Below, piece by piece: positions 4,277-20,087 of a stretch of 64,000 bases of DNA. Positions within the stretch are counted from its first letter, which is position 1. Each line of letters starts with the position of its first letter. Location: positions 1-64,000 of the forward strand of contig JAGOLX010000025.1 in NCBI GenBank assembly GCA_017993835.1, read 5' to 3'. The stretch comes from Phycisphaerae bacterium. GTDB taxonomy: Bacteria; Planctomycetota; Phycisphaerae; Sedimentisphaerales; Anaerobacaceae. The translations under genes were made by a program, and so were the position numbers. The notes below the pieces were generated by a model. The model searched no databases. It was given only the letters and a program-made list of their open reading frames with translations, and was not told the DNA's origin.

Positions 4277-7200
4277 CTACTTCTGGCCGTCGGGTGGCGA
4301 TGCTGCCGGGGCGGCCAGCCCATCGAGCAACCGGTCGATCTCCGACCGCTCCTCCGGGGTAAGGACGTTCTCTTCGCTATCGATCTCCAAGGCCTTCTTC
4401 AGATGCTGTTCTGCCTGCACCGCGTCCTTGAGCTTCACATAGACACGACCGAGCTGGAAGTGCGTCAGGGCCAGTCGTCGAGCATCGGAACCCGGCAGGG
4501 TCAGGATCTCCTCGAAGCAACTCTTGGCCTCCGCGAGACGCCCGGGCATACTCGACAGAATGGTCCCCTTCGTATCCAGCAGGTGCAGATCCCCGGATCG
4601 GATTCGGAGGCCCCGATTCACCAGCTTCAGCGCCTCGTCATAGCGTTGATACTTCTCCTGCAGGATCCACGCAAGATCGTTGAGTGCCTGGGCATCATCG
4701 GGATGCCGTTCGAGCAGTTCCCGGTAGACCCGTTCGGAAGCCTCTGTGTCTCCTGTCTGGTACAGACTGGAAGCGAGACCGCGGTGCAGATCCGCGGAGT
4801 CCGGCCAGAGAGAGACTCCGTGCTGGAACAGCTTGACGCCTTGGCCCCTGAGCTGCGGCGACCCCAACGACACGAGCAAATGCGCCGCATTGCGGACAAT
4901 CGTCATGTCCTGACCCTGGGCGGAGATGTACGCGGACGCAACCTCGTTGAGGTCGTCGAACCGCTTCATCGACACCCACAGGAGGGATCGGCTGTGGACA
5001 ACGGCCTGACTGTTCGGCTCCATTTGCTCCGCCTTGGCGACGACCTGCTGGGCCTTGTCCAAGTTGCCGGCCATGCGATAGAGGTCGGCCAGCGCAATGA
5101 GGGCCGTGATGCTGCGGCCTCCCTCGGCGGTCTGGCAATAGGCTTCCGTTTCCGGAATCGCGGCTTCCGCACGCCCCAGTGCAACCAGGACGTGCACGCG
5201 GGAGAGAACGATCGCCTCCCCCGCCGCCCCCGAGCGCTGGGCCGACTCGACAGCGGCCAGTGCCTGCTCCAGGGCGGTGCGATCCCTGCTGTTCAGAGCC
5301 GCCTGAACGAGCACATCGACCGCGTCGACACGGTTGGGGTCCGCCTGAAGGACCTGGCCGGCCAGCTTGGCCGCCATGGAGGGATAGCCCAGCAACAGCT
5401 CCGCCCTGGCTCGGGCGACCAGCAGCGCCGGGTTGTTGGCGTTCGAAGCCAGCGCGCGAACCGCCAGATCGCAGGCGGCCTGGTATTGCTGCTCCTGCAT
5501 CGCCATGCCGATCAGAGCCAGATGGGCATTGACCATCGTCGGTTCCAGCTTGACGACAGTCTCGCACTTCTCCTTGGCCACAGCGCGAGACTGAGGCGTC
5601 GCCGATGGATCGCTGAGGATCTGCGTGGCCCGAGTCATCAGCAGTTCGATGTCTTGAGGCAGCTTCGCCTCCAACTCCGTGAGGACGTCGAGAGCCTTCT
5701 GCCGGTCCTGCCCCTGGGCCCGCGCAAACAGCAGACGCATCTGACGCCGCTTCAGGAGAACGTCTTCGGGATACGCCTTCAACCCCTCCTCGACAGTCGC
5801 CAGCCCCTGGTCGAGCCTCTCCGTCGAAGCGTAGAAGCCGGCCAGAAGATCGTATCCCGCCCCGGCGCGATCGGCAAATGTAGTCAGCCTGCGATAGTCG
5901 GGTTCGGCGCGTTCGGTCTGGCCTGCTTCGGCCCAATAGACCGCTCGCATCCAGTATGCGTTGAAGTTGTTGTAGTCGGCCACGTAGTCGTCGAGGACCT
6001 TCAGGGCCTCCGTGTCCTTGCCCTGCGCCCTCAGGACCGAGACCCTCACCGCCGTCTGCGCGCGGGAGTCGGGCGCGATGGCCTTGGCCTCATCGAGATA
6101 TCGCATCGCCTCACTCGCGTCCTTCGTTTCCTGGTAGAGGAGCCTCGCCAGTTCCACCCGCGCGTCGGCGTCGCGCTTGTTCGTATCATTCGAGACCCGC
6201 AGCTTGAGATCATCGATGGCCCGCGAGAAATCCCGGGCGCCGACCGCCAGACGGACCTGCCAATTGGCGGCGGTCTGGCGATTCTGGATCTGCCGGAGCA
6301 CGGTCTCGGCCTCCGCATAGCGACCCTGCCGCTCCAGAAGACGGAGCAACAGCTCGCCAACCTGGCCGGCAACCGACGGGTTCTCGACGTTCGCCGCCAG
6401 TGCCTGCCGGTAGACTTCCTCGACCCTTCCCAATTCCCCCTGCTTCTGGTATGCCTCCGCCAGGAGCAGCACGGGCGCCAGCCAGGTGCGGTCCGCGCTG
6501 GTGCAGTACTCGAGCATCGTCACGATGTCCTTGTGCTTCACGGCCGCATCGGGGCCGGACAGCCAGATCGACGCCTGATACAGACGCCACCACAGCCCGC
6601 TCTGCCCCTCGGCCTGACGCAATTCGTCGACGAGCCTCGCGGCCATGCCGGGATCCTCCCGAATCTCGCGAACCCCCAGAAGCAGCAGCCGCGCCTGGAC
6701 CTCCTGCGGATCGCTGGCCAGTTCCTTCAGCAGACTGATTCCTGCAGCCCGGTCTCCATGGGCCAGTTCCAGAACGGCAAGCTTGGCCGAGACGGACTTT
6801 TTGGCCCGATCGTCCGCTGCCACATTGAGCCCTTGCTGAAGACTCCGACGCGCCGAATCATAGTCCTCCTGCATCACATAGAGGTCGGAGAGGGCCACCC
6901 ACGGTTCCGCATCGCCTTCATGGCGTTTGCACGCCGCCTCGCAGACGCTGATCGCATCCTGGACCCGTTTGGCGGCCACGTAGTGACGCACGAGCTGCAT
7001 CTCTGCCCGCAGCGGTTCCTTGCACTCCTCGATGGCCTGCTTCAATTCCCGCTCGGCCTGGTCGGGCTGGCCGAGAGTCGTCGCGATAATCGACTGGAAG
7101 ATGCGTATGTCCACGCGGTCGGGATACTGTTCCCTCAGTTCCGCGAGTTCCGTCGAGAGTTCCTTCAGACGCGATACGTCGGCGCCTTTCCCCGATCCGC

Positions 7201-8788
7201 TGGACCGACTGATGTCGGCCCCGATGCGCAGCAGCCTGCGGCCAAGGTCCGTCGGGTCCGTCGACTCCACTGCCTTGGCGACGTTGAACGCTCTCTCGAA
7301 GTTGCTCGACTGCGCGTATTGTCTTGCCAGTTCCCTTTGGGCCCGCTGATCCTGAGGATTGAGACGAAGGTACTGCTCCCACGCCACGGCCGCCCGCGAG
7401 GCCTGACCGGTGTCGCTGTAGGCCTGTGCCAGCAGGCGCAGCATCTGCGGATCGTTCGGATCGTTCCCGACCACCGGCTGGAGCACATCGATGACCGCGT
7501 ACGGCTTGTTCTCCGCCGCTGCGACCAGGCCCTTGAGCACCGCAATCGCACGCTCCTGCGCTCGGGTCGGCTGCCCCTGCACAGAGCCCACATACTCATC
7601 AAGATAACGACGCGCATCGGCGGTTCTGCCGACGCCGACATAAGCCTGAATGGCGAGAGGGAGCACGAGCGACTTGTACGACTTTCCGTGGTCTGCCAGC
7701 GAGGCCAGCGTCTCATCGGCCAGACTCGCGGCTCGTTCGCCATCCGCCTGGCGCACCGCCAGCTCCCACCCGAGATGGAAACGCCTCACCGACCACTCCA
7801 TGTCGCCAAACAACTCCTCTTTGAGAACATCCTTCGGGAGCTTGTCGGCGGCCTGGAACTGGGCGTCCGCCCGGTCGAGGTCCCCATGGCGGATCCATTC
7901 CTCCGCCAGCACATGGCCGACGCGGGGGTCCTTCGTGCCCAGGCGGTCAGCGGCCTCGAGGTCCTGGCGCGCCAGGGCCCAGAACGCCGCCTTGTCCACC
8001 TCGTTCACATCCGAAGCCATCGCCCGAGTGCGGTGAAACCTCGCCCGATAGACCAGAGCCTCCGCGGACGCCGGAGCGTACGCCACCGCCTTGTTGAGCC
8101 AATCCAAGGGCGTCATAGGACCGGTCGCCCCATCGCCGCCGACGGGAGCTTCGCCAGGGACGGGAGGCTTGGGCGTGTTGGCGTCCGCCGTATTGGCGTC
8201 CGCAGCCAGCACGCACGCACGCACGTACTCGACATGGACGCCGCCAAGACCTTCCAGACGCTGGATGAATGCCTCCAGCGTCTGCCGAGCATCCGCCTGC
8301 TTCTTCAGTTGGATCTGCGTTTCAGCCAGCCACAGCGGTGTCGCGAGGTCGTTGGGGTCCCGCGCCATGCGGGTCCTGGCGACCTTCTCGAACTCATCCA
8401 GCTTGCCGATGGACCGATACAGCTTGGCCAGACGCTCCGAGGCAACGTCGTCCTGCGGGTCCAGCTCCGTGATGCGCCGGCAGGCGGCGATCGCGCCGGT
8501 CAACGCCTGAGCGTCGGGCAATCGCATGGCCATCAGAACGTCGCTGTACTTGCGCAGGATGTCCAGGTCGTCGGGATTGCGGGCCAGGTACGCCCGGAAG
8601 CTCTTCGCAGCCGCCGGCCAGTCCTGCTTGTCGAGAGCCGCCTGCCCGGCCACCCGGGCCTGCTCCGAGAGGAGCCGACGACGAATCTGTCGCGCGAACA
8701 CGAGAGACACCCCGACCGCCGCAACGACCGCGATCAGAATGACCAGCAGCTTGACGTTGACCTTCCCGCTTGTACTTCGATGATACAT
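4277..8788 (-). CDS. Giant membrane-anchored TPR protein (PrsT-like candidate)
   Basis: 1503 residues from ATG 8788. This start has GAGGGA seven bases upstream; an in-frame ATG at 8803 and further upstream extension have no such site. Residues ~13-32 (VKLLVILIAVVAAVGVSLVF) form a single N-terminal membrane anchor without a lipobox. The rest is a continuous superhelix of tetratricopeptide repeats, with units such as WPAAAKSFRAYLARNPDD near the start and ALNDLAWILQEKYQRYDEAL near the end. A family comparison is the PEP-CTERM system TPR protein PrsT, which is a lipoprotein of ~900 residues. This one is larger and lacks the lipid Cys, so equivalence is inference, based on the nearby exosortase, its substrates and the polysaccharide genes. 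Expected role: a periplasmic scaffold for assembly or export. It could also serve an unrelated envelope complex. Confidence 0.85.
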   Translation of the reverse strand: MYHRSTSGKVNVKLLVILIAVVAAVGVSLVFARQIRRRLLSEQARVAGQAALDKQDWPAAAKSFRAYLARNPDDLDILRKYSDVLMAMRLPDAQALTGAIAACRRITELDPQDDVASERLAKLYRSIGKLDEFEKVARTRMARDPNDLATPLWLAETQIQLKKQADARQTLEAFIQRLEGLGGVHVEYVRACVLAADANTADANTPKPPVPGEAPVGGDGATGPMTPLDWLNKAVAYAPASAEALVYRARFHRTRAMASDVNEVDKAAFWALARQDLEAADRLGTKDPRVGHVLAEEWIRHGDLDRADAQFQAADKLPKDVLKEELFGDMEWSVRRFHLGWELAVRQADGERAASLADETLASLADHGKSYKSLVLPLAIQAYVGVGRTADARRYLDEYVGSVQGQPTRAQERAIAVLKGLVAAAENKPYAVIDVLQPVVGNDPNDPQMLRLLAQAYSDTGQASRAAVAWEQYLRLNPQDQRAQRELARQYAQSSNFERAFNVAKAVESTDPTDLGRRLLRIGADISRSSGSGKGADVSRLKELSTELAELREQYPDRVDIRIFQSIIATTLGQPDQAERELKQAIEECKEPLRAEMQLVRHYVAAKRVQDAISVCEAACKRHEGDAEPWVALSDLYVMQEDYDSARRSLQQGLNVAADDRAKKSVSAKLAVLELAHGDRAAGISLLKELASDPQEVQARLLLLGVREIREDPGMAARLVDELRQAEGQSGLWWRLYQASIWLSGPDAAVKHKDIVTMLEYCTSADRTWLAPVLLLAEAYQKQGELGRVEEVYRQALAANVENPSVAGQVGELLLRLLERQGRYAEAETVLRQIQNRQTAANWQVRLAVGARDFSRAIDDLKLRVSNDTNKRDADARVELARLLYQETKDASEAMRYLDEAKAIAPDSRAQTAVRVSVLRAQGKDTEALKVLDDYVADYNNFNAYWMRAVYWAEAGQTERAEPDYRRLTTFADRAGAGYDLLAGFYASTERLDQGLATVEEGLKAYPEDVLLKRRQMRLLFARAQGQDRQKALDVLTELEAKLPQDIELLMTRATQILSDPSATPQSRAVAKEKCETVVKLEPTMVNAHLALIGMAMQEQQYQAACDLAVRALASNANNPALLVARARAELLLGYPSMAAKLAGQVLQADPNRVDAVDVLVQAALNSRDRTALEQALAAVESAQRSGAAGEAIVLSRVHVLVALGRAEAAIPETEAYCQTAEGGRSITALIALADLYRMAGNLDKAQQVVAKAEQMEPNSQAVVHSRSLLWVSMKRFDDLNEVASAYISAQGQDMTIVRNAAHLLVSLGSPQLRGQGVKLFQHGVSLWPDSADLHRGLASSLYQTGDTEASERVYRELLERHPDDAQALNDLAWILQEKYQRYDEALKLVNRGLRIRSGDLHLLDTKGTILSSMPGRLAEAKSCFEEILTLPGSDARRLALTHFQLGRVYVKLKDAVQAEQHLKKALEIDSEENVLTPEERSEIDRLLDGLAAPAASPPDGQK

Positions 8789-9032
8789 CACGCGTTCCCT
8801 CATAAAAACGCCCGCACGGGCCCGATCCACCACGCTACGCAGCAGCCGTTCCAGGTTCCTGCGAGCAATCAGACAATACAGTCCTCCCCGGAGGTCTCGT
8901 TTCCACATACCCCCAGCGATTCACGAGCATTCTACAGCATCCGCCGCTCGAAATCACCAACTTCTTGACACACAGACACGTTGACCTTTCCTGCACGCCG
9001 TGAGACACCCCCGAGAACGTGTGTGAACAAGC

Positions 9033-9932: not shown

Positions 9933-10508
9933 CTATACGAGGCTACGCAGCTTCCGGCCCGCGTAACCCAGACCCAGGAAGCCGAGCAACACCGCACCAG
10001 GGAGAGGGACCGGCACGGCCTCGACTTTGTCAATGGCCAGTTGTCCCCAGGTTGCGGCCCATGTCGGGTTAGGATTAGTAATCGTAAGCGTCAACACGGA
10101 GCCGGGAGTGCCACTGAAGGACGTGGTCACCCAGGTTTCGCCCCCGAGGGCATCCGTGTAACTTCCCCAATCTGCCCCGTCAACATCAACAGAGAACGTG
10201 TCGTCTATCAGACCGGCAAGATGCCTTATCTCCACCGACAGTATGTCTGTGGGGTAGGTGATCGTCGCCGTATAGGTGGCGTCACCGCTTGCGTCGTTGC
10301 CCTTCACCATCATGGAGTTGTTGAGACCTATGTCTCCATAGCCCACTCCAGTTGAGGACTCATACTCTCCCCACCCGGACAGGGAGATCGTTGGAGGAGC
10401 CAGATAGGTCGTCCCCCCCGTGAAGTCAACCACGTAGAGGTCGGCCATCGCCGGGGTGGCGAGGAGGGCCAACAGCACTGTCAAACCGCATATCGTTCTT
10501 GTCTTCAT
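9933..10508 (-). CDS. VPxPGAV-CTERM exported protein
   Basis: 191 residues from ATG 10508 (AAAGGTG six bases upstream; the GTG at 10517 is less likely). The signal peptide is MKTRTICGLTVLLALLAT, cut near AMA. The body is a ~140-residue beta-rich domain of the carbohydrate-binding or discoidin-like kind (GWGEYESSTGVGYGDIGLN, then SVEIRHLAGLIDD), with no catalytic motif that I recognise. The C-terminus is a tripartite sorting signal: VPLPGAVLLGFLGLGYAG, then RKLRSLV. By analogy with PEP-CTERM it should be cleaved by an exosortase, and one is encoded ~8 kb upstream on the same strand. This is the last gene of the cluster, directly before a terminator. Confidence 0.85.
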   Translation of the reverse strand: MKTRTICGLTVLLALLATPAMADLYVVDFTGGTTYLAPPTISLSGWGEYESSTGVGYGDIGLNNSMMVKGNDASGDATYTATITYPTDILSVEIRHLAGLIDDTFSVDVDGADWGSYTDALGGETWVTTSFSGTPGSVLTLTITNPNPTWAATWGQLAIDKVEAVPVPLPGAVLLGFLGLGYAGRKLRSLV

Positions 10509-10616
10509 CTTTTTCACCTTTACTCCATTGTCAAGTGGATATTTTTTTTGTGAACAACGTCTTCAAGACTTCAGCAGACTGCCTGCGAAACGAAGTCTTG
10601 GCCTGCCTGGCTCCGA

Positions 10617-11519
10617 TCAACCCAGTCTGCGTCTGCGCAGACGCCAGTTAGCGTACCCTATGCCGATCGTACCCAGCACAACAGCTCCAGGGACCGGGAC
10701 GGGCGCCGGGACTGTAAAGGAAATCTCGCCCTTGAAGGGCGACGCCCACGAACCAGCGGGAGCCCCACTCCAAATACCCCAGCCGGGGTGGAAGGTCCCA
10801 CTAGTATCGTGGAATGACTCCTCGGTCAGTACGAACTTGCAGATGTAGTCCCCATCCGGCAACACAAGCTCTCCCGGTTTCGCCTTTCCGGGAGTAGTGT
10901 AGAGTTCGGACTGGGCATAGATCCCCACCGTAGCCGGGCCGTAGTCGGTGGCATACCACTCCGAAGCCGGATCCGGGTTGAATGTGACATAGGTGATCGG
11001 ACCATCATACGCCGCGGGCATTCCAAACCCATATGTGCCTGTCGTGCCCGTTGAATCGGACGTCCTGAACAGGACGTGGTAGCTGCTATCCGTCACAAAA
11101 CTCGTCGTCGCATTTCCCGACCCGTCAGTCACCAACATCCCGAAGGGCAGATAACCCGTGGTGCCGCTCGTACGCCCCAAGTCTGCAAGCGTCGTGTTCG
11201 TCCAGGCGTCACTTGAACCTTCGAGTTTCAACTGATAGGCGAAATTGGGCTTGAGGCCGGTCGCGGTGACCGTGCCGGTCAACTGGCTTCCAACGACATC
11301 ATAGCTCACACTGACGCTTGCACCAGCATAGTCAGCCGAGCTTGCAGTCATATCGGGCGTACCTTCATACATATTGCCCGCGACGTCTTTCCATCGCTGA
11401 TTGCCGGGCCAAGGCCAGCCGGTATCATAGTCGAGACTCAGATTGCAGATATCAGCCCCTACGGGCGTCACAGTGCCGATCAGAATCACAGCCAAGCAAA
11501 TGACTGAGAACTTCTTCAC
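10617..11519 (-). CDS. VPxPGAV-CTERM exported protein, 300 residues
   Basis: The start is GTG 11519, with the perfect ribosome site AAAGGAGGTGA just upstream; the frame extends to an ATG at 11543 that would place that site inside the gene. The signal peptide VKKFSVICLAVILIGTV ends near VGA. The mature part has two beta regions (SADYAGASVSVSYDV; TSFVTDSSYHVLFR) and near its end KGEISFTV. No enzyme motif is seen. The sorting signal is divergent: VPVPGAVVLGTIGIGYAN followed by WRLRRRRLG, with V for L after PGAV and a Trp in the basic tail. It is the largest CTERM protein of the group. Confidence 0.82.
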   Translation of the reverse strand: MKKFSVICLAVILIGTVTPVGADICNLSLDYDTGWPWPGNQRWKDVAGNMYEGTPDMTASSADYAGASVSVSYDVVGSQLTGTVTATGLKPNFAYQLKLEGSSDAWTNTTLADLGRTSGTTGYLPFGMLVTDGSGNATTSFVTDSSYHVLFRTSDSTGTTGTYGFGMPAAYDGPITYVTFNPDPASEWYATDYGPATVGIYAQSELYTTPGKAKPGELVLPDGDYICKFVLTEESFHDTSGTFHPGWGIWSGAPAGSWASPFKGEISFTVPAPVPVPGAVVLGTIGIGYANWRLRRRRLG

Positions 11520-11647
11520 GTACTCACCTCCTTTCCTCCGCATGCTACAAGCTTCACTGCATGGTGAAACGTGGTGGAGCCGACGCTAACACGCGGCAAC
11601 CACCCATCAGCCGCCTCCGACGGCAGAAGAACCGAAGAGGCAGCTTG

Positions 11648-12244
11648 TCATGTCACACAGGGAGGTCCGCGAGGCGCCACTACGGACGGTGAGAATTGAT
11701 GTATCCGCCAATGGCATGTGATCGTATCCCAGTGGTATTGCGGCGGGAGGTCGAAGTCCCCAGAGCCTGCTTGAAAACAGCAGGCCAACACGGAAGCGGA
11801 GCCAAACCAGTCCGGCGAGCCGGCAAAGCGATGGCCGACCCAGAGGGGATCGCCGTCGCGATGCCAGGCGGGAATGCCGCCCAGCGAAAGCTTCCTCACC
11901 CACGGGGCGGACCTGCACACACCGAAACCGAGCAGCGCGTACAGGCATAGGCTGAGACTGTCCTGCCTATCGACGAGGATGGCGGGCGACCGCGGATCGG
12001 GGACGCCTGTCGCACCCACCTGGATCCTGGGGAGGGATCCGATAGGAATGGCATTCACATCGGCAAGCGTCAGACAGACCGAATTCGACCAGACGCACGC
12101 TCGGTCATCTACACGACGACAGGGAGAAATCGACGGACTCCCCGCGGTCGGCCGGACCATGGGCATCATGTCCGCGCAGACCGGCGACCCGGCGAGCAAC
12201 ATCGCCGTTGTCACGAGGACGACATTCCACCAACCTTCTCTCAT
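11648..12244 (-). CDS. Exported protein of an unrecognised LCLYAL/SAPWV family (copy A3)
   Basis: 198 residues from ATG 12244, with GGCGGGG four bases upstream. The signal peptide ends near VCA-DMM. The core shared with the proteins at 14490 and 16341 is Q-D-S-x-S-LCLYALLGFGVC, then RSAPWVRKLSLG, P-x-W-x-x-DG and a GH(R/S) motif, ending near the C-terminus with W-R-x-x-QFSP and RGPP. Two cysteines in the core are conserved in all three, but the later SPDC cysteine is Trp here. There is no CTERM signal. The LCLYAL segment is hydrophobic enough to insert in a membrane. I know no family for it. Function is unknown; the position among exosortase substrates suggests a partner role (inference). Confidence 0.7.
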   Translation of the reverse strand: MREGWWNVVLVTTAMLLAGSPVCADMMPMVRPTAGSPSISPCRRVDDRACVWSNSVCLTLADVNAIPIGSLPRIQVGATGVPDPRSPAILVDRQDSLSLCLYALLGFGVCRSAPWVRKLSLGGIPAWHRDGDPLWVGHRFAGSPDWFGSASVLACCFQAGSGDFDLPPQYHWDTITCHWRIHQFSPSVVAPRGPPCVT

Positions 12245-12355
12245 TTGTCCCCGCCGATAGACATCACCGCCACCACTCCAAGGAACCGCCGCATCGGAGG
12301 CGGAAACCGGCAGGAATCCTCAGATCGTTGCCGACGAAATCAAGATTATGCCAAC

Positions 12356-13030
12356 TCACGCAGATCTGCGGAGCCTCATGCCCGCATACCCCAGACCGAG
12401 CAGGCCCAGCAAAACCGCCCCGGGGACCGGGACCAGTCTGACTGTCATCGCGGCCAGAGCGAATTCGCCAGCCTCGGGACTGAACACGAGCGCGTCGCCA
12501 GCGTTCAAGACGATTCCACCCAGACTCTGCGTGACTGCGCCATCCGTCCCCCATGCAATATCCTCGAAGCCCAGTAGCTGCCAACTCGTCTCCGTCACTT
12601 GTGATGACGTGCCATACTCGCGAATCACGGATACGACCGCGATCTCTCCCGCCGCCGGACTCGGATCAGGTTTGAATAGCGACCTCAGTTCAACGGAGTC
12701 GATGTAGTATGCCTCAGTGAATACCACATCGATGTGTTCCACGATACCCACGAGGTCCTTATCCACTTCATCCAGTTCGCCCCCCTGGATGCCGAGGCCA
12801 CGAGTGTCTCTCTGCGTGAAGACGCCAGCGCTGCCATTGCGCATGGCATAGGCCATGGCGTCACCAGCGAGTAGAGACAGTTGGCTTACTGCGAGGACGT
12901 TGGTCCCCGCGCCAAATCCGGTCGTGCTGTCCACGTTGTCATAGGGCAACTGGTAGAACTGCACCATGTCCGCTGTCGCGGGTGCGGCGAGACACGCGCC
13001 CGCAACCACAAGGAACAGTACCCGTTTCAT
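12356..13030 (-). CDS. VPxPGAV-CTERM exported protein
   Basis: 224 residues from ATG 13030, close behind AAGGAG. The signal peptide is MKRVLFLVVAGACLAAPA, cut before DMVQF. The body is beta-rich: a jelly-roll-like stretch with HIDVVFTEAYYIDSVELRS and SVIREYG, and near the end GDALVFSPEAGEFALAAM. It ends in VPVPGAVLLGLLGLGYAG and MRLRRSA, the best match to the cluster consensus. The gene to its right ends 48 bp before it. No catalytic signature; probably a surface-displayed matrix protein. Confidence 0.84.
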   Translation of the reverse strand: MKRVLFLVVAGACLAAPATADMVQFYQLPYDNVDSTTGFGAGTNVLAVSQLSLLAGDAMAYAMRNGSAGVFTQRDTRGLGIQGGELDEVDKDLVGIVEHIDVVFTEAYYIDSVELRSLFKPDPSPAAGEIAVVSVIREYGTSSQVTETSWQLLGFEDIAWGTDGAVTQSLGGIVLNAGDALVFSPEAGEFALAAMTVRLVPVPGAVLLGLLGLGYAGMRLRRSA

Positions 13031-13078
13031 AGCTCCTTCTCTCTTTCCCCATCCACTCCCACTCAACACTCCTTTGGC

Positions 13079-13681
13079 TCAGGCGTACCTGCGCAGCTTC
13101 ATCCCGGCGTAACCTAATCCAACAGCGCCCAGCAGGACCGCCGCCGGGACAGGCATATGCACAAAATTGCCATACAAGACCGAGTGATCCAGCCAGGCTG
13201 TCGCCTGACCCAACGGGTTCGAGACGGAGATCTTCACATCCAGGACGCCGTTGTCATTCAGCCAATCGACGTTCATCGCCAGTTCATAGGCGCCGTTGTC
13301 CACCTCGTCCAAGCCCTTCCATGCAGAGCCATCGAAGACGAGGGTCGTGAACTCCCGAAGATCCAGGAGCTTGATCCGGCCCATCGAGTAGTAATCGCTC
13401 AGATCATTCACGAAACTCAGTTCCAGCCATGCCTCCGCGACCCGGCGTTCGTCGGGGACGCCGTAGACAGTCAGGTCGTGCCGATAGGCCAGAGGACTGC
13501 CCTGCGTAATCCTGGTCGCATCCAGATCCCAGCCCAACAGCCGAGGCCATGTGTCAACCGCGATCTGATCGACAAAGCCGTAATCAGTCCCCTGCCAGAG
13601 GTCCGCGGAGGCAGCATTGACTCCCAATACGAAAAGGACAGCCGCCGCAACCATCCCTGTTGCACCGACTCTTCGACTCAT
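13079..13681 (-). CDS. CTERM exported protein with variant PVPAAV signal
   Basis: 200 residues from ATG 13681 (GAGG nine bases upstream; ATG 13690 is also possible). The signal peptide contains GMVAAAVLFVLGVNAASA. The body has a repeated W-x-G-D/W-L-D beta pattern (YSMGRIKLLDLREF; YELAMNVDWLNDNGVLDV), which suggests a beta-sandwich. The sorting signal reads MPVPAAVLLGAVGLGYAG, then MKLRRYA. Ala replaces the Gly that follows the second Pro in the other six substrates, which tests how strict the exosortase is. It lies directly upstream of the 12356 gene with 48 bp between them. Confidence 0.82.
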   Translation of the reverse strand: MSRRVGATGMVAAAVLFVLGVNAASADLWQGTDYGFVDQIAVDTWPRLLGWDLDATRITQGSPLAYRHDLTVYGVPDERRVAEAWLELSFVNDLSDYYSMGRIKLLDLREFTTLVFDGSAWKGLDEVDNGAYELAMNVDWLNDNGVLDVKISVSNPLGQATAWLDHSVLYGNFVHMPVPAAVLLGAVGLGYAGMKLRRYA

Positions 13682-13802
13682 AGCCCACATCCTCAGTCTC
13701 TCCCAACGCTGCTCAGAGAGCCGGACACCCGAAGCCCGATCTCCTACTCGGATAGGCTACGCCCCAAGTCAGTCACGCCATCTGGGGGACACAACACACT
13801 CC

Positions 13803-13835
13803 CTGGCGAAGCCCCTTTCTCAGAGGCTTCGCCAG
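13803..13835 (-). terminator. Hairpin after the 13886 gene
   Basis: CTGGCGAAGCC (13803-13813) and GGCTTCGCCAG (13825-13835) pair perfectly over 11 bp. On the minus strand TGTGTTGTGT follows soon after. The hairpin lies 50 bp beyond the 13886 stop, so it may stop or attenuate transcription within the cluster. Confidence 0.6.
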
Positions 13836-13885
13836 GCCATCTCTTCTCTACTGAGCCCAGGCAGTGACCGCCTTCTACGCGTTCA

Positions 13886-14551
13886 CTACGCGCGTTTCCG
13901 CAGCTTCAGACCGGCAGCGCTCAAGCCAAGGAAGCCGAGCAGCACAGCACCCGGAACAGGAACGCAGACCAACATGTCCTGGGCAACGCTCCCATCCAGA
14001 CCCCACAAGCTCATGACCTTCACAGGGATAGTCCCAAGGTTGTCAGCAAATGGGTCCGTAAACTGTGCCTCCACCATGGCCAGGAATTTTGTGTCATCGG
14101 GTTTGCTGCCTTCTCCTTCCAGGTACCAGATTGTTTGCTGGAGGATCCCCGCATCTGTTGTACGACCTGGGTTATCCCAGGCATATTCTTCGAGTGTCTG
14201 ACCTTGGAACTCATGGTAGAGCCAAGCCGTCCCGAGACTGATGGGATCACCTGTCCCCGGCACGCCACCATACATCGCATTGTCACCAAATGTCACATTA
14301 TACGTGACACCGGGGGAGAAACGTTCGCTATACTCTATACAAAATGTCTGAAAAGAAGGGTCGTGATCTCCGATGTTGCTTGTGCTCTCATCGTAGTACT
14401 TGAGGGGATCCCAACTCCAAAGGATGGGGTGCGCCGTGAACTCACCTCCAATGCCAGAGGAGTATATCGATGTGTACACCTGTACCTGATCAGCCAAGGC
14501 AGGGATGGTCAATAACACACAAATCGCCCCGACAAGCATCCAAGTTCTCAT
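13886..14551 (-). CDS. VPxPGAV-CTERM protein with thioester-domain-like motifs (copy 3)
   Basis: 221 residues from ATG 14551, with AAAGGG upstream. The signal peptide ends at PALA. The mature region shares one architecture with the proteins at 15585 and 17097: GGEFT, then SFQTFCIEYSE, then AWLYHEFQGQTLEEYAW, then LQQTIWYLEGE. The FC-(I/V/L)-E cysteine and the LQ-x-x-IW glutamine are placed as in Cys-Gln thioester (TQXA/TED) adhesion domains, so a reactive internal thioester is a reasonable prediction (inference). The sorting signal is VPVPGAVLLGFLGLSAAG then LKLRKRA. The start overlaps the tail of the preceding gene by about 60 bp. Confidence 0.85.
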   Translation of the reverse strand: MRTWMLVGAICVLLTIPALADQVQVYTSIYSSGIGGEFTAHPILWSWDPLKYYDESTSNIGDHDPSFQTFCIEYSERFSPGVTYNVTFGDNAMYGGVPGTGDPISLGTAWLYHEFQGQTLEEYAWDNPGRTTDAGILQQTIWYLEGEGSKPDDTKFLAMVEAQFTDPFADNLGTIPVKVMSLWGLDGSVAQDMLVCVPVPGAVLLGFLGLSAAGLKLRKRA

Positions 14552-15212
14552 TGTTCGTGCCCTTTACAACCGATTGCTGGTGAACCATACACTGCTTCTC
14601 ACGCAAGGGAGGATTCACTGGGCACGTCGGGGGTCCTCGGGATACGAGTGTCTCGTATGTGAACTGCGACTCTCGCCAGAGGGAGACGATCATCTCCCGG
14701 CGATAATGAGGCGAAGGATCATGGGCGATCTTCCCCGGCTGGATGAAGCAATAGCCCGACGCCACGGTGAGACAGTCGGGTGAGATCGCATGGCTGTGGC
14801 CCACCTGGAAGGGCCCGCCATCGTGATACCAGCCTGGGACAACCCCAAGGGACAGCTTCTTCACCCACGGAGCGGACTTGCACAGTCCCAAGGTGAACAA
14901 GGCATAGAGACACAAGCTGCGGCTGTCCTGCCTATCCGACAGGATAGGGACAGGCCGGGATTCATCGACACCACCGGCGTCCGCCCTTGCGCTTGCCGGA
15001 GGCACGGTGGACAGGAAACCCCAGTCGTCAACGATCGCGGAACAGGCAAGGACGTTCGGGAAGCCCGGAGACTCCGGCTCGGAGACATCGCAGCTCGCCG
15101 TCCGGATTCGCCAGTCAGCGCTCGCCTCGGACATACGCACCATGTCGGCGCAGACCATACGCCCGGCGCTGAGCACCAACACGGTCACCAGGATGGCCTT
15201 CCTCAAGTCCAT
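14490..15212 (-). CDS. Exported protein of the LCLYAL/SAPWV family (copy A2)
   Basis: 240 residues from ATG 15212, with GGAG eight bases upstream. The signal peptide MDLRKAILVTVLVLSAG ends near VCA-DMVRM. The family core is present: SLCLYALFTLGLCKSAPWV, KKLSLG, PGWYHDGGPFQVGHS and ISPDC, with W-R-E-SQF and SRGPP towards the end. Unlike its two relatives it continues ~40 residues past RGPP, and this tail overlaps the start of the 13886 gene in another frame, so the extension may be recent read-through. No catalytic motif and no CTERM signal. It follows a thioester-type CTERM gene, as does copy A1. Confidence 0.72.
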   Translation of the reverse strand: MDLRKAILVTVLVLSAGRMVCADMVRMSEASADWRIRTASCDVSEPESPGFPNVLACSAIVDDWGFLSTVPPASARADAGGVDESRPVPILSDRQDSRSLCLYALFTLGLCKSAPWVKKLSLGVVPGWYHDGGPFQVGHSHAISPDCLTVASGYCFIQPGKIAHDPSPHYRREMIVSLWRESQFTYETLVSRGPPTCPVNPPLREKQCMVHQQSVVKGTNNENLDACRGDLCVIDHPCLG

Positions 15213-15406
15213 TCCTGCCACTCCACGGACAAATCAAATTCCGACGATATTGTCAGGCCGGGCCGCTACCCTGTCAAGGATTACTTCCGAAAATAATTGT
15301 AGTTATTTTATACGATGGCGTGTTTTATCGGGTGATGGTCATCGGGCCCTACAGACGGGATTCCGCCTCGGGCCAAGACCATCCGAGGTATACCCCTGCC
15401 GGATGG

Positions 15407-15452
15407 CGACGAGGAGCGACGACGCTCTTCCGCGTCGGTTCGCTCCTCGTCG
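15407..15452. other. Long hairpin in the 15222-15584 gap
   Basis: CGACGAGGAGCGA (15407-15419) and TCGCTCCTCGTCG (15440-15452) are perfectly complementary over 13 bp with a 20-base loop. No T-run follows on either strand, so it is more likely an RNA stem than an intrinsic terminator. The rest of the 363-bp gap holds an AT-rich patch at 15285-15315, a plausible promoter area for the gene starting at 15212, and no gene. Confidence 0.5.
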
Positions 15453-15584
15453 GAATCGCAGATGCGATAGACGCATTCTGCGATATCAGTGTAAAGTCAT
15501 GTCAGACCATGGCTTACGAGCTGCCCGCACAGGGTTTGTCGCATAGACCATCCGTCCTTGCGAGCTCGCGCCACAGAGCGACCA

Positions 15585-16289
15585 TTACGCCATCTTCCGC
15601 AACCGCCTGCCGGCATAGCCCAAACCCAGCAGACCCAGCAGAACCGCACCGGGAACAGGAACGCAGACAAGCAGGTCCTGGTGCTGATGGCCCAACACTC
15701 CCACGTAGTTCTTGTCCCAGAGATTCATGACTCTGACAGCATACGCACCGTCGTTATCAGCTTTGGCATTCGCGGCTGAGCCGAATTGGCTGATTGCCAG
15801 GGCCGTATATTTATTCTCCGCGCCGTCCTTCTCGCCTTCCAACCACCAGATTGCCTTCTGTAGCAGATCCGCATCATATTTGCGCTCTGCGGTGGTGCCA
15901 TCATAGGCATAATCGAGCGTCCCGTCCTGAAACTGCTTGTACAACCATGCGGTACCAATAGAAAGGGGGTCAGCGCCGCCCACTCCGCCGTAAACAGCAG
16001 AGTCACTTAAGACAACCGCATACTCTGAAGGGTACGCACTAATAGTCTCAAGGCGTTCAAGGCAGAATGTCTGGAATGTACCATCAACTCCGACGTCTTT
16101 CAGGTCTTTGTCGTCAGCATAATATGGCAGAGGATCCCAGCCTGAAGGATTCACTGTGAACTCGCCGCCCAAGCCCGTTTGATATGGCCCGTAATTAGAC
16201 CCCGAATACCCTATCTGAAGCGTCAGATCCGCAAGGGCCGGCGACGCAACAACCGCACACAACACCCCTATGAATAGCAATTTCCTCAT
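15585..16289 (-). CDS. VPxPGAV-CTERM protein with thioester-domain-like motifs (copy 2)
   Basis: 234 residues from ATG 16289 behind AGAGGAG. The signal peptide is MRKLLFIGVLCAVVASPA, cut before DLTLQ. The shared architecture is present: GGEFTVNPSGWDPL, then TFQTFCLERLE, then AWLYKQFQDGTLDYAY, then LLQKAIWWLEGE. The motifs carry the candidate thioester Cys and Gln. It ends VPVPGAVLLGLLGLGYAG, then RRLRKMA. It lies 51 bp after the A1 gene. Expected location: the outer surface, attached after exosortase processing. The thioester assignment rests on motif spacing only. Confidence 0.86.
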   Translation of the reverse strand: MRKLLFIGVLCAVVASPALADLTLQIGYSGSNYGPYQTGLGGEFTVNPSGWDPLPYYADDKDLKDVGVDGTFQTFCLERLETISAYPSEYAVVLSDSAVYGGVGGADPLSIGTAWLYKQFQDGTLDYAYDGTTAERKYDADLLQKAIWWLEGEKDGAENKYTALAISQFGSAANAKADNDGAYAVRVMNLWDKNYVGVLGHQHQDLLVCVPVPGAVLLGLLGLGYAGRRLRKMA

Positions 16290-16340
16290 TTCTATCTCCT
16301 CTTGAGCCTGACTAATAGAAGCGAATGCTTCGACTCGTTC

Positions 16341-16952
16341 TTACGCACAGAGCAATTCCGGAGCCAGGCTCGGCGGACCTCGGGAGGCGAGTCCTACAGG
16401 CGAAAACTGCGATTCCCGCCAAAGGGAGATGATCAACTCCCGGCAGTATGCTGGCCTAGGCGATTGGGCTCCAGGCTCCGCCTGAACAAAGCAGACCAGC
16501 GATGGGCACAGGCAATCTGACGAAAGGACACGCCGGTCGCCGATCTGAAATGGCCCGCCATCATGGTACCAGCCGGGCACAAGACCCCGCGACATCCTCT
16601 TGACCCAAGGGGCGGATTTGCACATGCCCAGACTGACCAGGGCATACAGGCACAGTCCAAGGCTGCCCTGCTTGTCCGCGAGGATCAAGGACGCCACCGG
16701 CGGCTCGCCAGAATCGATAGCCTCCACAGGCATGTCTGGGCTGATGCCGGTGGGCGGGAGTCCCAGGTCGGCACCGAGGCAAAGAATGGATATGTCGAAG
16801 GCACTGGCGACGTGCGGATCGTCGCGATCCCGGATGACCGCCGGCAGCGGAGGCTCGGTGTCCCCCTGGAACACCCGGACCATGTCCGCGCGCACCGCGC
16901 CCGCCGCGACGAGCGCGAAAACCACCGCCAGAATTGTCTTCCTCCCGTTCAT
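16341..16952 (-). CDS. Exported protein of the LCLYAL/SAPWV family (copy A1)
   Basis: 203 residues from ATG 16952, with AAGGG seven bases upstream; the frame is open to 17009 but has no better start. The signal peptide MNGRKTILAVVFALVAAG ends near VRA-DMVRV. The core reads SLGLCLYALVSLGMCKSA, PWVKRMSRG, PGWYHDGGPFQIGDR and LSSDC, and the protein closes with W-R-E-SQFSP, ASRGPP and a short tail. The four core cysteines of A1 and A2 coincide. It sits between two thioester-type CTERM genes. Family, fold and role unknown to me. Confidence 0.72.
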   Translation of the reverse strand: MNGRKTILAVVFALVAAGAVRADMVRVFQGDTEPPLPAVIRDRDDPHVASAFDISILCLGADLGLPPTGISPDMPVEAIDSGEPPVASLILADKQGSLGLCLYALVSLGMCKSAPWVKRMSRGLVPGWYHDGGPFQIGDRRVLSSDCLCPSLVCFVQAEPGAQSPRPAYCRELIISLWRESQFSPVGLASRGPPSLAPELLCA

Positions 16953-17096: not shown

Positions 17097-17873
17097 TCAG
17101 TCACACCTGCGACGTAGTCGCAGGCCGGCGTATGCCAATCCCAGCGAGCCCAAGAGGACGGCGCCGGGAACCGGAACGGGAGACAGGTACAGTTGGCTCT
17201 GGAGGACCCCGTACTCCCCTGTCTTCTTGTTGATCCCTTCCAGGTTCAACACCATCACTTTACCAAGGGCGCTCCCTACAGTCGTCCCAGATGCCAGATA
17301 CGCAGTCTCCCACGTGTCGATCAGTGCAAGTTGCGCACCATTCAAGTACACTCCCGTGTACAGATCATCTCCATATGCTCCGTCTACATCCCATTCGGTA
17401 CCTCCTCCCTCGTCCTCCAAGGACCATATGAGCCTCTGAAGAGCACCGGCAGTCTGCACGCGAGTGAGTCCCCCGACGGTTCCCGTGTATGCATAGCCCG
17501 CCAGATTCCCCGTGGCAAACTGCGTATAGAGCCAGGCGACTTCGGGACCGATGTAATCCGGATGGTCCCCACCCCCTCCCTCGATGGCATACTCTTCCAG
17601 AGAGGCATCAAGATTGTCCTCCGGAGGATAAATGTGCTCGCTGAATTCGACACAGAAGGACTGGAACGACGGATCGAAGGCTCCTTGGTCGCGCGCGACG
17701 TCAGCATAGGCGTCCAGACTGAGACTCGTGTCACAGATCGTGTACTCGCCGCCCCACCCACTGTAGCAACCGGTCACGCGCTGCACATCCACCGTGCCGA
17801 CGGAATCCGCGACCGCAGTCCCGGCGGCAATGATCCCAAGGATCATGCTGACGGCTGTCATTCGATTCATCAT
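17097..17873 (-). CDS. VPxPGAV-CTERM protein with thioester-domain-like motifs (copy 1)
   Basis: 258 residues from ATG 17873, with GGAAGGGA upstream. The signal peptide covers MILGIIAAGTAVA. It has the same order of motifs as the 13886 and 15585 proteins: GGEYT, then SFQSFCVEFSEH, then AWLYTQFATGNLAGYAY, then ALQRLIWSLEDEGG. There is a longer insert before the last third. The sorting signal is VPVPGAVLLGSLGLAYAG, then LRLRRRCD. It is the first gene of the cluster after the exosortase gene, from which it is separated by 415 bp, so it may have its own promoter. Confidence 0.85.
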   Translation of the reverse strand: MMNRMTAVSMILGIIAAGTAVADSVGTVDVQRVTGCYSGWGGEYTICDTSLSLDAYADVARDQGAFDPSFQSFCVEFSEHIYPPEDNLDASLEEYAIEGGGGDHPDYIGPEVAWLYTQFATGNLAGYAYTGTVGGLTRVQTAGALQRLIWSLEDEGGGTEWDVDGAYGDDLYTGVYLNGAQLALIDTWETAYLASGTTVGSALGKVMVLNLEGINKKTGEYGVLQSQLYLSPVPVPGAVLLGSLGLAYAGLRLRRRCD

Positions 17874-18288
17874 CGTGTGTTCCCTTCCTTCCCCTACTCT
17901 GCTCTCTCTACTCTACCTATCCGACCCCACCTGAATCGGACCGCTCTCTCTCCTGCGGGCAGACCTATCGCCCGGCAAGAAACCGACATCCTGTCGGCGT
18001 GGCTGGAGATTGTGGACTACCGGCCTCCCACGAAGAGCTGCGAGATTCCCCTACTCCTCATCACCACCGAAGTGGCCGACCTGCCAACCAATCCATTCAT
18101 GCACCTATATACTTTATTAGACCTTGATCGGTGCAACAAGTCAAGTGACAATCAACGTGGAAGGCCGCACCGACCGGACACCCATCTCGCACATGTACAC
18201 CATAAGTCCCTTAATTACAAGCACTTACAGTGCACGCCAGGAGAAGTCATCGAGGCGGCCGAAGAGGGAAGATTTTTCTCCCCGAATG
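17874..18288. other. 415-bp gap between the exosortase gene and its substrate cluster
   Basis: I see no gene here. An AT-rich patch (TATATACTTTATTAG near 18108-18122) could hold a promoter. The small GCACT/AGTGC dyad near 18222-18235 is too short to call. Presumably the gap contains the leader of the cluster transcribed leftward. Confidence 0.4.
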
Positions 18289-19275
18289 TCACGAGGTGCT
18301 TGTGCGTTTTCGCACAACCACCCCGCCGGCGGGCCGCGTTGAACCGCTGTCACGGCCGGACCGGCTCTCGGAGTCAGGGACGATGAGCCTGTCCATCAGC
18401 CAGATCTCGCTGAAGATCAGCGAGACGGCCGCAGGCATCATCACCAGACCCGCGAAATCGTGGAAGAACTTCTCGCCCAGTTCCACGCTGACATACAGCA
18501 TGATCATCGCGGTCAGTGAGATTCGGATGATATTGCAGATCACCGCGATGGGAATGCTCGATGCCAGCACGATTCCCTTCTGCCATCGAGGCCGCTTCAC
18601 CATATAGGCGATGAACGCAGCGACAATGATGAAGGCCGTCAACATGCGAAGGCCGCTGCACGCCTCCGCGACAGCCATGGGGGTATTGTCCCCCAGCATG
18701 ACGACATTGCCCTGCTGAGTCACTCGGGTCCCGAATGCCTCCAGCAGAAAGACCGACCCGGTCGTCGCCAGCCTCTGAAGAGGACCGGCGATAACGTTGT
18801 GAACAGGGGTGGGAAGGGGTACCATGAGGAACAGAAACAGCAATACCCACAACAAACGCCGAAATATCTCCCGGCCCGCCACCATGAGAAGCAGCCCTGC
18901 AATGGTCAGCACGAGCGTGTATGGGTCCCCTGATCCGATCCCGAAGAACAGCGCGAACAAGCGCAGGGACTGCGCCAGCAATACCAGAGCCAGTCCACCA
19001 CTCCAGCAGGGTACCATAGAGTGCCACGTCAGAGTCTTTCTCTCACGCCAGACAAAGAACAAGGCAACCAACGGAACAAGCTGTCCCGCGGAGTAATCCA
19101 TACTCCACTGCCACCGGTTGACGAGAATGTCTATCGTGGACCAATGCGCCCAGGCAGTCGTGCACGCTACAATCAGCACAGGCACGACCTGTGTGACGCG
19201 ATTCGGCCATACACGCTCTTTCGCGAGATCCTGGAGGGAAGACGTGCGCGCGACATGTTGAGACAGTTTTTGCAT
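18289..19275 (-). CDS. Exosortase
   Basis: 328 residues from ATG 19275, which overlaps the TGA of the EpsI gene as ATGA; the longer frame to 19344 would overlap that gene by 70 bp. A multi-pass membrane protein with about eight hydrophobic segments. The exosortase catalytic residues are all visible: Cys206 in AEACSGLR, Arg251 in CNIIRIS and His272 in FFHDFAG. The family is a cysteine transpeptidase-like enzyme that cleaves CTERM signals in the inner membrane and hands the protein on. Its likely substrates are the seven VPVPGAV-tailed proteins encoded downstream. It ends the polysaccharide operon, as is usual for these systems. I cannot assign a numbered XrtX subtype from sequence reading alone. 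Confidence 0.95.
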   Translation of the reverse strand: MQKLSQHVARTSSLQDLAKERVWPNRVTQVVPVLIVACTTAWAHWSTIDILVNRWQWSMDYSAGQLVPLVALFFVWRERKTLTWHSMVPCWSGGLALVLLAQSLRLFALFFGIGSGDPYTLVLTIAGLLLMVAGREIFRRLLWVLLFLFLMVPLPTPVHNVIAGPLQRLATTGSVFLLEAFGTRVTQQGNVVMLGDNTPMAVAEACSGLRMLTAFIIVAAFIAYMVKRPRWQKGIVLASSIPIAVICNIIRISLTAMIMLYVSVELGEKFFHDFAGLVMMPAAVSLIFSEIWLMDRLIVPDSESRSGRDSGSTRPAGGVVVRKRTSTS

Positions 19276-19997
19276 CAATGGTCCCTCGGCTCCCACAGGG
19301 CAGGGGCTGAGTTGGCGTCCACACAGTCCCCGGTCTTTTCGCACTGTTGGGCTATCAGAGGAGCGGAGTCAACCGCGAAATCACAGGCGATCCTCGCCGC
19401 CTCGTCGGCAGACAGAACCTCTGTGACAGAAGTGACAATCTCCACTTGGGCGACATAGCCAATGCGCCAGTGCCGGTATCGCCATTCACGATCCGTCTGG
19501 CAAAAACGTCCATCCACGACGTAGTAGTGCACAACCACGATCTTGGTCGTATTCAGACCGCCTCGCGAAAACTCAATAACAGCGCACGGGAGCACCGCTC
19601 CAGAACCCAGGGACAACTGCCGAAAGGACCGACCTGTGCGAGTCCAGCCCGCTCCGATGTAACACCCTTCAGGCCGATGCGGCAGCATATCGCGCAGTCT
19701 GGTACCACATCCAACATAGAGAGAGACCGACTCGCCGCCGCGCGAGTATCGGCGGTTGATGCATGCATCGGTACCTGTCCTTCGTGCCACAGCCTCGTCG
19801 AGCGGAACATCTTCCCCTGCCCAACCGGCGATCCGCATGGGAATTCCCTCGAGCGCGTCGGGCGCAATCAGAATCGTGCTCGGACGTACTCCCAGCCGGA
19901 TAGCCAGCGTGCGATAGGTCCATCCAAACAGGAGCATCAGGACGCCGGCAATTACAGCAGCCCCACCCGGTCTGTGATACAGGCGTTTTCCTATCAT
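19275..19997 (-). CDS. Exosortase-associated EpsI-like protein (DUF3485)
   Basis: 240 residues from ATG 19997, with AAGGA eight bases upstream. There is one N-terminal membrane segment (VIAGVLMLLFGWTYRTLAI). The periplasmic domain carries the EpsI landmarks GWAGEDVPLD, HRPEGCYIGAGW and VVVHYYVVDG. EpsI domains occur either alone next to exosortases or fused to them, and are thought to work with the exosortase. Here the gene is separate, and its stop codon overlaps the exosortase start, so the two are translationally coupled. The substrate or reaction of the domain is not established. Confidence 0.9.
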   Translation of the reverse strand: MIGKRLYHRPGGAAVIAGVLMLLFGWTYRTLAIRLGVRPSTILIAPDALEGIPMRIAGWAGEDVPLDEAVARRTGTDACINRRYSRGGESVSLYVGCGTRLRDMLPHRPEGCYIGAGWTRTGRSFRQLSLGSGAVLPCAVIEFSRGGLNTTKIVVVHYYVVDGRFCQTDREWRYRHWRIGYVAQVEIVTSVTEVLSADEAARIACDFAVDSAPLIAQQCEKTGDCVDANSAPALWEPRDH

Positions 19998-20087
19998 CAC
20001 ATGGGTCCTTGTTCCAGTAGCACTATGCTTTTCAATCCACCCCAAGAAGAAGCAGAGTGCGAATGTGGCGGCTCCCCGGGCCGGATA

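Follow-up and report, generated by a model that had tools for sequence, protein, structure and literature searches.

Exosortases are known mostly by sequence; sorting involves the enzyme, EpsI, and the substrates. A system of the exosortase/CTERM kind has already been described, namely the PEP-CTERM/EpsH system with EpsH (TIGR02602), EpsI (TIGR02914), and PrsT (TIGR02917) (Haft et al. 2006, PMC1569441). The window analyzed here, i.e., the whole stretch of 64,000 nucleotides from a Phycisphaerae genome, resembles that system in its EpsH-family exosortase, its EpsI-like gene, its PrsT-related TPR protein, the presence of polysaccharide genes, and sorting signals at the C-terminus that consist of a motif, a helix, and a basic tail. 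However, the sorting motif of the window is VPxPGAV, and its exosortase falls below the cut-offs of all named subtypes. In addition, the window encodes three members of a protein family that is not among the components given in the available part of the 2006 description.

The exosortase locus of the window, all features of which are encoded on the minus strand, lies among polysaccharide genes. Profile scores identify an EpsI-like protein (DUF3485; 19275..20045) upstream of the exosortase (18289..19344), and a giant TPR protein (4277..8908) closes the locus. The exosortase belongs to the EpsH/8TM family, scoring 193 bits with PF09721 (cut-off 25.7) and 142 bits with TIGR02602 (cut-off 105.6), and reaches no named NCBIfam subtype (XrtA, B, C, D, V, W, and others), the best being XrtD with 162.8 of 400 bits, with XrtA at 144 of 208. 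The TPR protein, with 198 bits, fails the 312-bit cut-off of TIGR02917, and is PrsT-like but outside the PrsT family proper. A VPVPGAV-CTERM gene (17097..17873) lies between the exosortase and family member C (16341..16952), which is the first family gene past these two. Directly downstream of C, B, and A are VPVPGAV-CTERM genes at 15585..16289, 13886..14551, and 10617..11543, respectively; the first encodes an ectodomain with a thioester-like Cys/Gln pattern, the second an ectodomain 44% identical to it, and the third an unrelated one. Three further CTERM genes have the motifs VPVPAAV (13079..13690), VPVPGAV (12356..13069), and VPLPGAV (9933..10517). The ectodomains of 13886–14551, 15585–16289, and 17097–17873 have FC(I/L/V)E ... 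LQ(Q/K/R)(A/T/L)IW in common and no Pfam match; this pattern resembles the Cys and Gln motifs of surface-adhesin thioester domains.

An earlier note on this DNA had described three related proteins with shared motifs, and these are real paralogues, B and C being 36–41% identical to A when the ORF translations are aligned along their full length. Member C begins with the ATG at 16952; B (14490..15212) begins with the ATG at 15212, in an ORF that opens with a GTG at 15221; and A (11648..12244), which also has an ATG start, is the most diverged of the three. The elements P-x-W-x-x-DG-x-P and WR-x-x-QF occur in all of them, as claimed. The other two motifs need rewording: LCLYAL-x-x-(L/F)G-x-C(K/R)SAPWV is common to A, B, and C, but the leading SLCLYAL reads GLCLYAL in C; and RGPP is near-terminal in A (3 residues follow) and C (9 follow), whereas in B the frame extends ~45 residues past it, into the beginning of the CTERM gene 13886–14551. 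The similarity is not due to chance, since there are 28 homologous loci in 16 genomes, codons for invariant residues vary freely, and dN/dS is ~0.25–0.55 in the nearest pairs; the last two findings indicate that the constraint acts on the protein. The same genome has a fourth copy on a different contig, where a VPVPGAV-CTERM gene again follows immediately downstream.

The family occurs in a single Phycisphaerae clade. Whole-genome searches recovered its 28 copies from 16 of the 89 genomes in the window's own family-level clade, and the same 16 are the positives among the 161 genomes of the order; they cover seven or more genera. In a phylum sample of 392 genomes, with 8 candidates scored per genome, the window's own genome was the sole positive, and a pattern scan of 84,980 species gave 7 loci, all in Phycisphaerae/Planctomycetota metagenome genomes. 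No copies were found on plasmids. The earlier note took the family to be unrecognized, which agrees with the absence of any above-cut-off Pfam or NCBIfam match for 17 members, no family being reached, even weakly and at chance level, by more than two of them. A sequence search of the PDB likewise gave no relative (two chance matches with E above 1), and no description was found in the literature searched, which left out most subscription journals. Within the libraries searched, neither the family nor the exosortase subsystem marked by it has been described.

All homologues occur in genomes that bear exosortases, rather than widely without them, which the earlier note had named as grounds for refutation. 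Bare exosortase presence says little, however, because 82 of the 89 clade genomes have such enzymes. The family co-occurs with one exosortase class, whose members share 56–66% identity with the enzyme of the window (a partial copy reaches 72%) and which is found in 16 genomes; its boundary is a score gap, full-length copies having at least 325 bits and the partial copy 238, against at most 228 for other exosortases. The family is present in 14 of the 16 genomes with this class versus 2 of the 73 without it (14/2/2/71 genomes; Fisher p = 1.8e-12, a figure inflated by genome relatedness), and the family and exosortase trees are roughly congruent. The two genomes with the family and without the class (G006 and G007) are represented by incomplete assemblies. 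Conversely, one locus of G059 and the exosortase locus of G026 contain this exosortase class with CTERM genes and no adjoining family gene; in the reference genome, where the CTERM profile gives 43 matches in 6.4 Mb, there are four family genes, and most CTERM genes have no family gene beside them, which counts against an accessory function. Thus, the family gene is not strictly needed.

A second exosortase class, of ~670 residues, is common in these genomes (L109:1625-3640, on G000:C90; L110:1240-3243; L111:1278-3491), and exosortase frames of this length are listed in many clade genomes. It looks like a fusion of an N-terminal nucleotidyltransferase with a left-handed hexapeptide repeat (GlmU/RmlA-like) to a C-terminal exosortase; we know of no sugar-nucleotidyltransferase–exosortase fusion that has been described.

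Neighborhoods of up to 20 kb were read around each of the 28 copies, one (L071) being left out because its contig ends right after the family gene. In all 27 loci with a readable neighbor, the next gene is a same-strand VPxPGAV-CTERM gene, even though CTERM genes are sparse, with only 43 profile matches in the 6.4-Mb reference genome. Homologues thus lie beside such genes wherever this could be read, a check the earlier note had proposed. A pattern search finds the directly following CTERM gene in 25 of the 27, the open-frame gap never exceeding 162 bases, and in L087 and L088 the CTERM profile places the tail in the next frame (G484:C424:29773-29850 and G483:C1:1013225-1013311). The order EpsI, exosortase, (CTERM), family gene, CTERM gene(s) recurs in 14 loci; EpsI is seen in 13, the remaining contig beginning inside the exosortase, and the giant TPR gene lies downstream in 10, while three contigs end too early and L088 has no TPR gene within reach. 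Six copies form stand-alone family–CTERM pairs with no exosortase in the stretch (L067, L074, L079, L084, L089, and L090), a count that omits L070, L076, and L082, which are at contig ends. L077, also at a contig end, contains the family gene followed by five CTERM genes and a TPR gene. An internally deleted remnant of a family gene is found at L090:6111-6362, in which the signal peptide and the last part (FWRKSQFTPEVIASRPPP) are retained and the middle is gone; a CTERM gene still lies behind it and a promoter-like site in front. The association of the family with CTERM genes and exosortase is well documented, and the earlier reading of an exported family tied to CTERM genes is borne out overall, neither a known family nor occurrence apart from exosortases having been found.

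The CTERM ectodomains encoded beside the family fall into 17 groups without mutual BLAST matches among the 25 proteins compared, which argues that the common partner of the family is not an ectodomain. Between two genera (G004 and G035), identity is 53% for the paired CTERM proteins and 42% for the family proteins, while copies of the family within these genomes are 63 and 75% identical, the single such case. In both genomes the closest relative is therefore the other copy in the same genome, the pattern expected of a protein tied to a genome-wide partner. These observations also bear on the strongest rival explanation, namely that the family protein is cargo rather than helper. It would then be a structural or matrix component of the extracellular polysaccharide layer that lacks a CTERM signal and is exported and expressed together with the CTERM proteins because they build one surface coat. 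Such a role would suit the signal peptide, the shared operon with genes for surface proteins and a PrsT-like TPR protein, the position of this operon in a polysaccharide locus, the multiple paralogues found per genome, and the moderately fast rate of evolution (dN/dS ~0.4). However, no fixed CTERM partner is kept, the family is linked to a single exosortase class and not to exosortases or polysaccharide loci in general, and conservation is strongest in and after a hydrophobic helix, which is unusual for a soluble matrix protein; we regard cargo as possible but rather unlikely.

At the exosortase locus and in the stand-alone pairs alike, the family gene is promoter-proximal to the VPxPGAV-CTERM genes. 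Just upstream of family genes, TTGACA/TATAAT-like sites score at least 9/12 in 73% and at least 10/12 in 54%, versus 0% at both thresholds for the CTERM genes right behind them and 11% and 2% for shuffles. Near-consensus sigma-70 promoters thus precede family genes and not the following CTERM genes, indicating that the family gene leads the operon and generally opens the transcript. In the window, a clear site is present only at member B (TTGACA-N17-GACAAT, 15249..15277), and C and A are presumably transcribed by read-through. RpoN-type promoters have been reported for some PEP-CTERM genes; none were observed upstream of family genes. Between the exosortase and the CTERM gene 17097–17873 (window positions 17860–18300) lies a promoter-like CTTGACTTG-N16-GTCTAAT, and a similar sequence precedes the family gene in G005, which suggests insertion of this CTERM gene into the space separating the promoter from the family gene. 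A short GGAGTGAxGGGT-like sequence also recurs between the -10 element and the start codon (e.g., L080, L078, L082, and L088); in the examples examined, it lies too far from the start to be a simple ribosome-binding site. Being the first gene after strong promoters, and having invariant residues that reach near the C-terminus (RGPP), the family could have a regulatory or signaling role, as an exported precursor or sensor that controls the expression of CTERM operons through release or readout of its C-terminal part. This is improbable, since ~100 conserved residues are long for a peptide signal and no obvious shared regulator gene lies beside the stand-alone pairs that were read.

The earlier note had seen signal peptides in the three proteins; read from sequence, nearly all members begin with one (charged n-region, hydrophobic h-region, A-x-A-like site before D/G-M), the N-terminal feature also expected of exosortase substrates. 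A lipoprotein was rejected, there being no lipobox at the cleavage site. As in member C, the signal peptide is followed by a variable linker of 55–70 residues, a hydrophobic 15-residue helix (LCLYALxGLGLC), K/R-SAPWVKK, and ~85 conserved residues ending near RGPP. In member B, the helix (SLCLYALFTLGLCKSA region) maps to 14877..14924, according to two low-confidence models and hydrophobicity, with the same segment in other members. AlphaFold2 yielded no usable fold, either for B alone (pLDDT 33) or for 11 sequences (mean pLDDT 46, pTM 0.27), so that the structure prediction proposed earlier contributed only a central segment that is helical in both poor models. The conserved cysteines from which disulfides or a cofactor had been suggested were overstated: the positions hold cysteine in 25, 22, and 19 of 26 sequences, and the sole near-invariant one sits inside the helix, for which reason this was rejected as the main explanation.

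The claim that a sorting signal is lacking holds for the C-terminus, but the central helix is as hydrophobic as the CTERM helices, with a mean best-15 hydropathy of 1.86 versus 1.94 for CTERM tails and 1.22 for the ectodomain background (95th percentile 1.74); its hydrophobic moment is low. This equality, the basic residues behind the helix, and a variable N-terminal part with conservation from the helix onward would fit an unusual exosortase substrate with its helix mid-protein, cleavage before which would free the variable N-terminal 60–70 residues and leave a long C-terminal piece. We consider such a substrate quite unlikely, because a PEP-CTERM-type signal is not present: no P-x-P motif precedes the helix, ~85 conserved residues rather than a short basic tail follow it, and profile comparison with CTERM tails gave no similarity. 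The last result also counts against an accessory role, as does the Hessa scale, on which membrane insertion of the helix would be marginal (sum 2.3 to 8.1).

We tentatively favor an accessory role, in which the three paralogues represent a so far undescribed protein that assists one exosortase subsystem, a plausible reading that falls a little short of probable. Its mechanism is inferred only, since AlphaFold gave no usable fold. The protein would be exported via its signal peptide, and the central helix, as long and as hydrophobic as the CTERM helices and likewise followed by positive charge, may span the inner membrane once; this charge would favor an N-outside, C-inside orientation under the positive-inside rule. 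Made just ahead of the CTERM substrates, the protein might join the exosortase/EpsI machinery in the membrane and help to receive, hold, or hand over these substrates, possibly through its conserved C-terminal 85 residues (WYHDGGPFQIGHS ... SLWRxSQFTP ... RGPP). Three observations (the family is linked to CTERM genes whatever their ectodomain, it is linked to a single exosortase class, and its copies resemble each other within a genome) point to a partner common to the pathway, i.e., exosortase/EpsI or the CTERM tail, and a membrane-anchored accessory is therefore favored, receipt and handover being the conjectural last step. A more specific version, in which the helix mimics the CTERM helix and the protein, made first, loads or holds substrates on one exosortase class as a membrane-anchored escort, is rather doubtful; to our knowledge, no exosortase has an escort-type partner.

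Among named subtypes, the VPLPA-CTERM-specific exosortase XrtD (TIGR04152) scores best with the window's enzyme and has a similar sorting motif; however, the enzyme lies far below its cut-off, and exosortase and EpsI are two genes here. NCBIfam names accessory proteins of exosortase systems, and the family would act like them, being non-catalytic and linked to a single exosortase subtype; all 17 members, however, stay below the cut-off of every NCBIfam model. The family is probably a dedicated, undescribed part of the exosortase sorting system, and it defines an unnamed exosortase subsystem. Its positional association with CTERM genes is complete and its correspondence with one exosortase class nearly one to one, which makes it a concrete, deletable candidate component.
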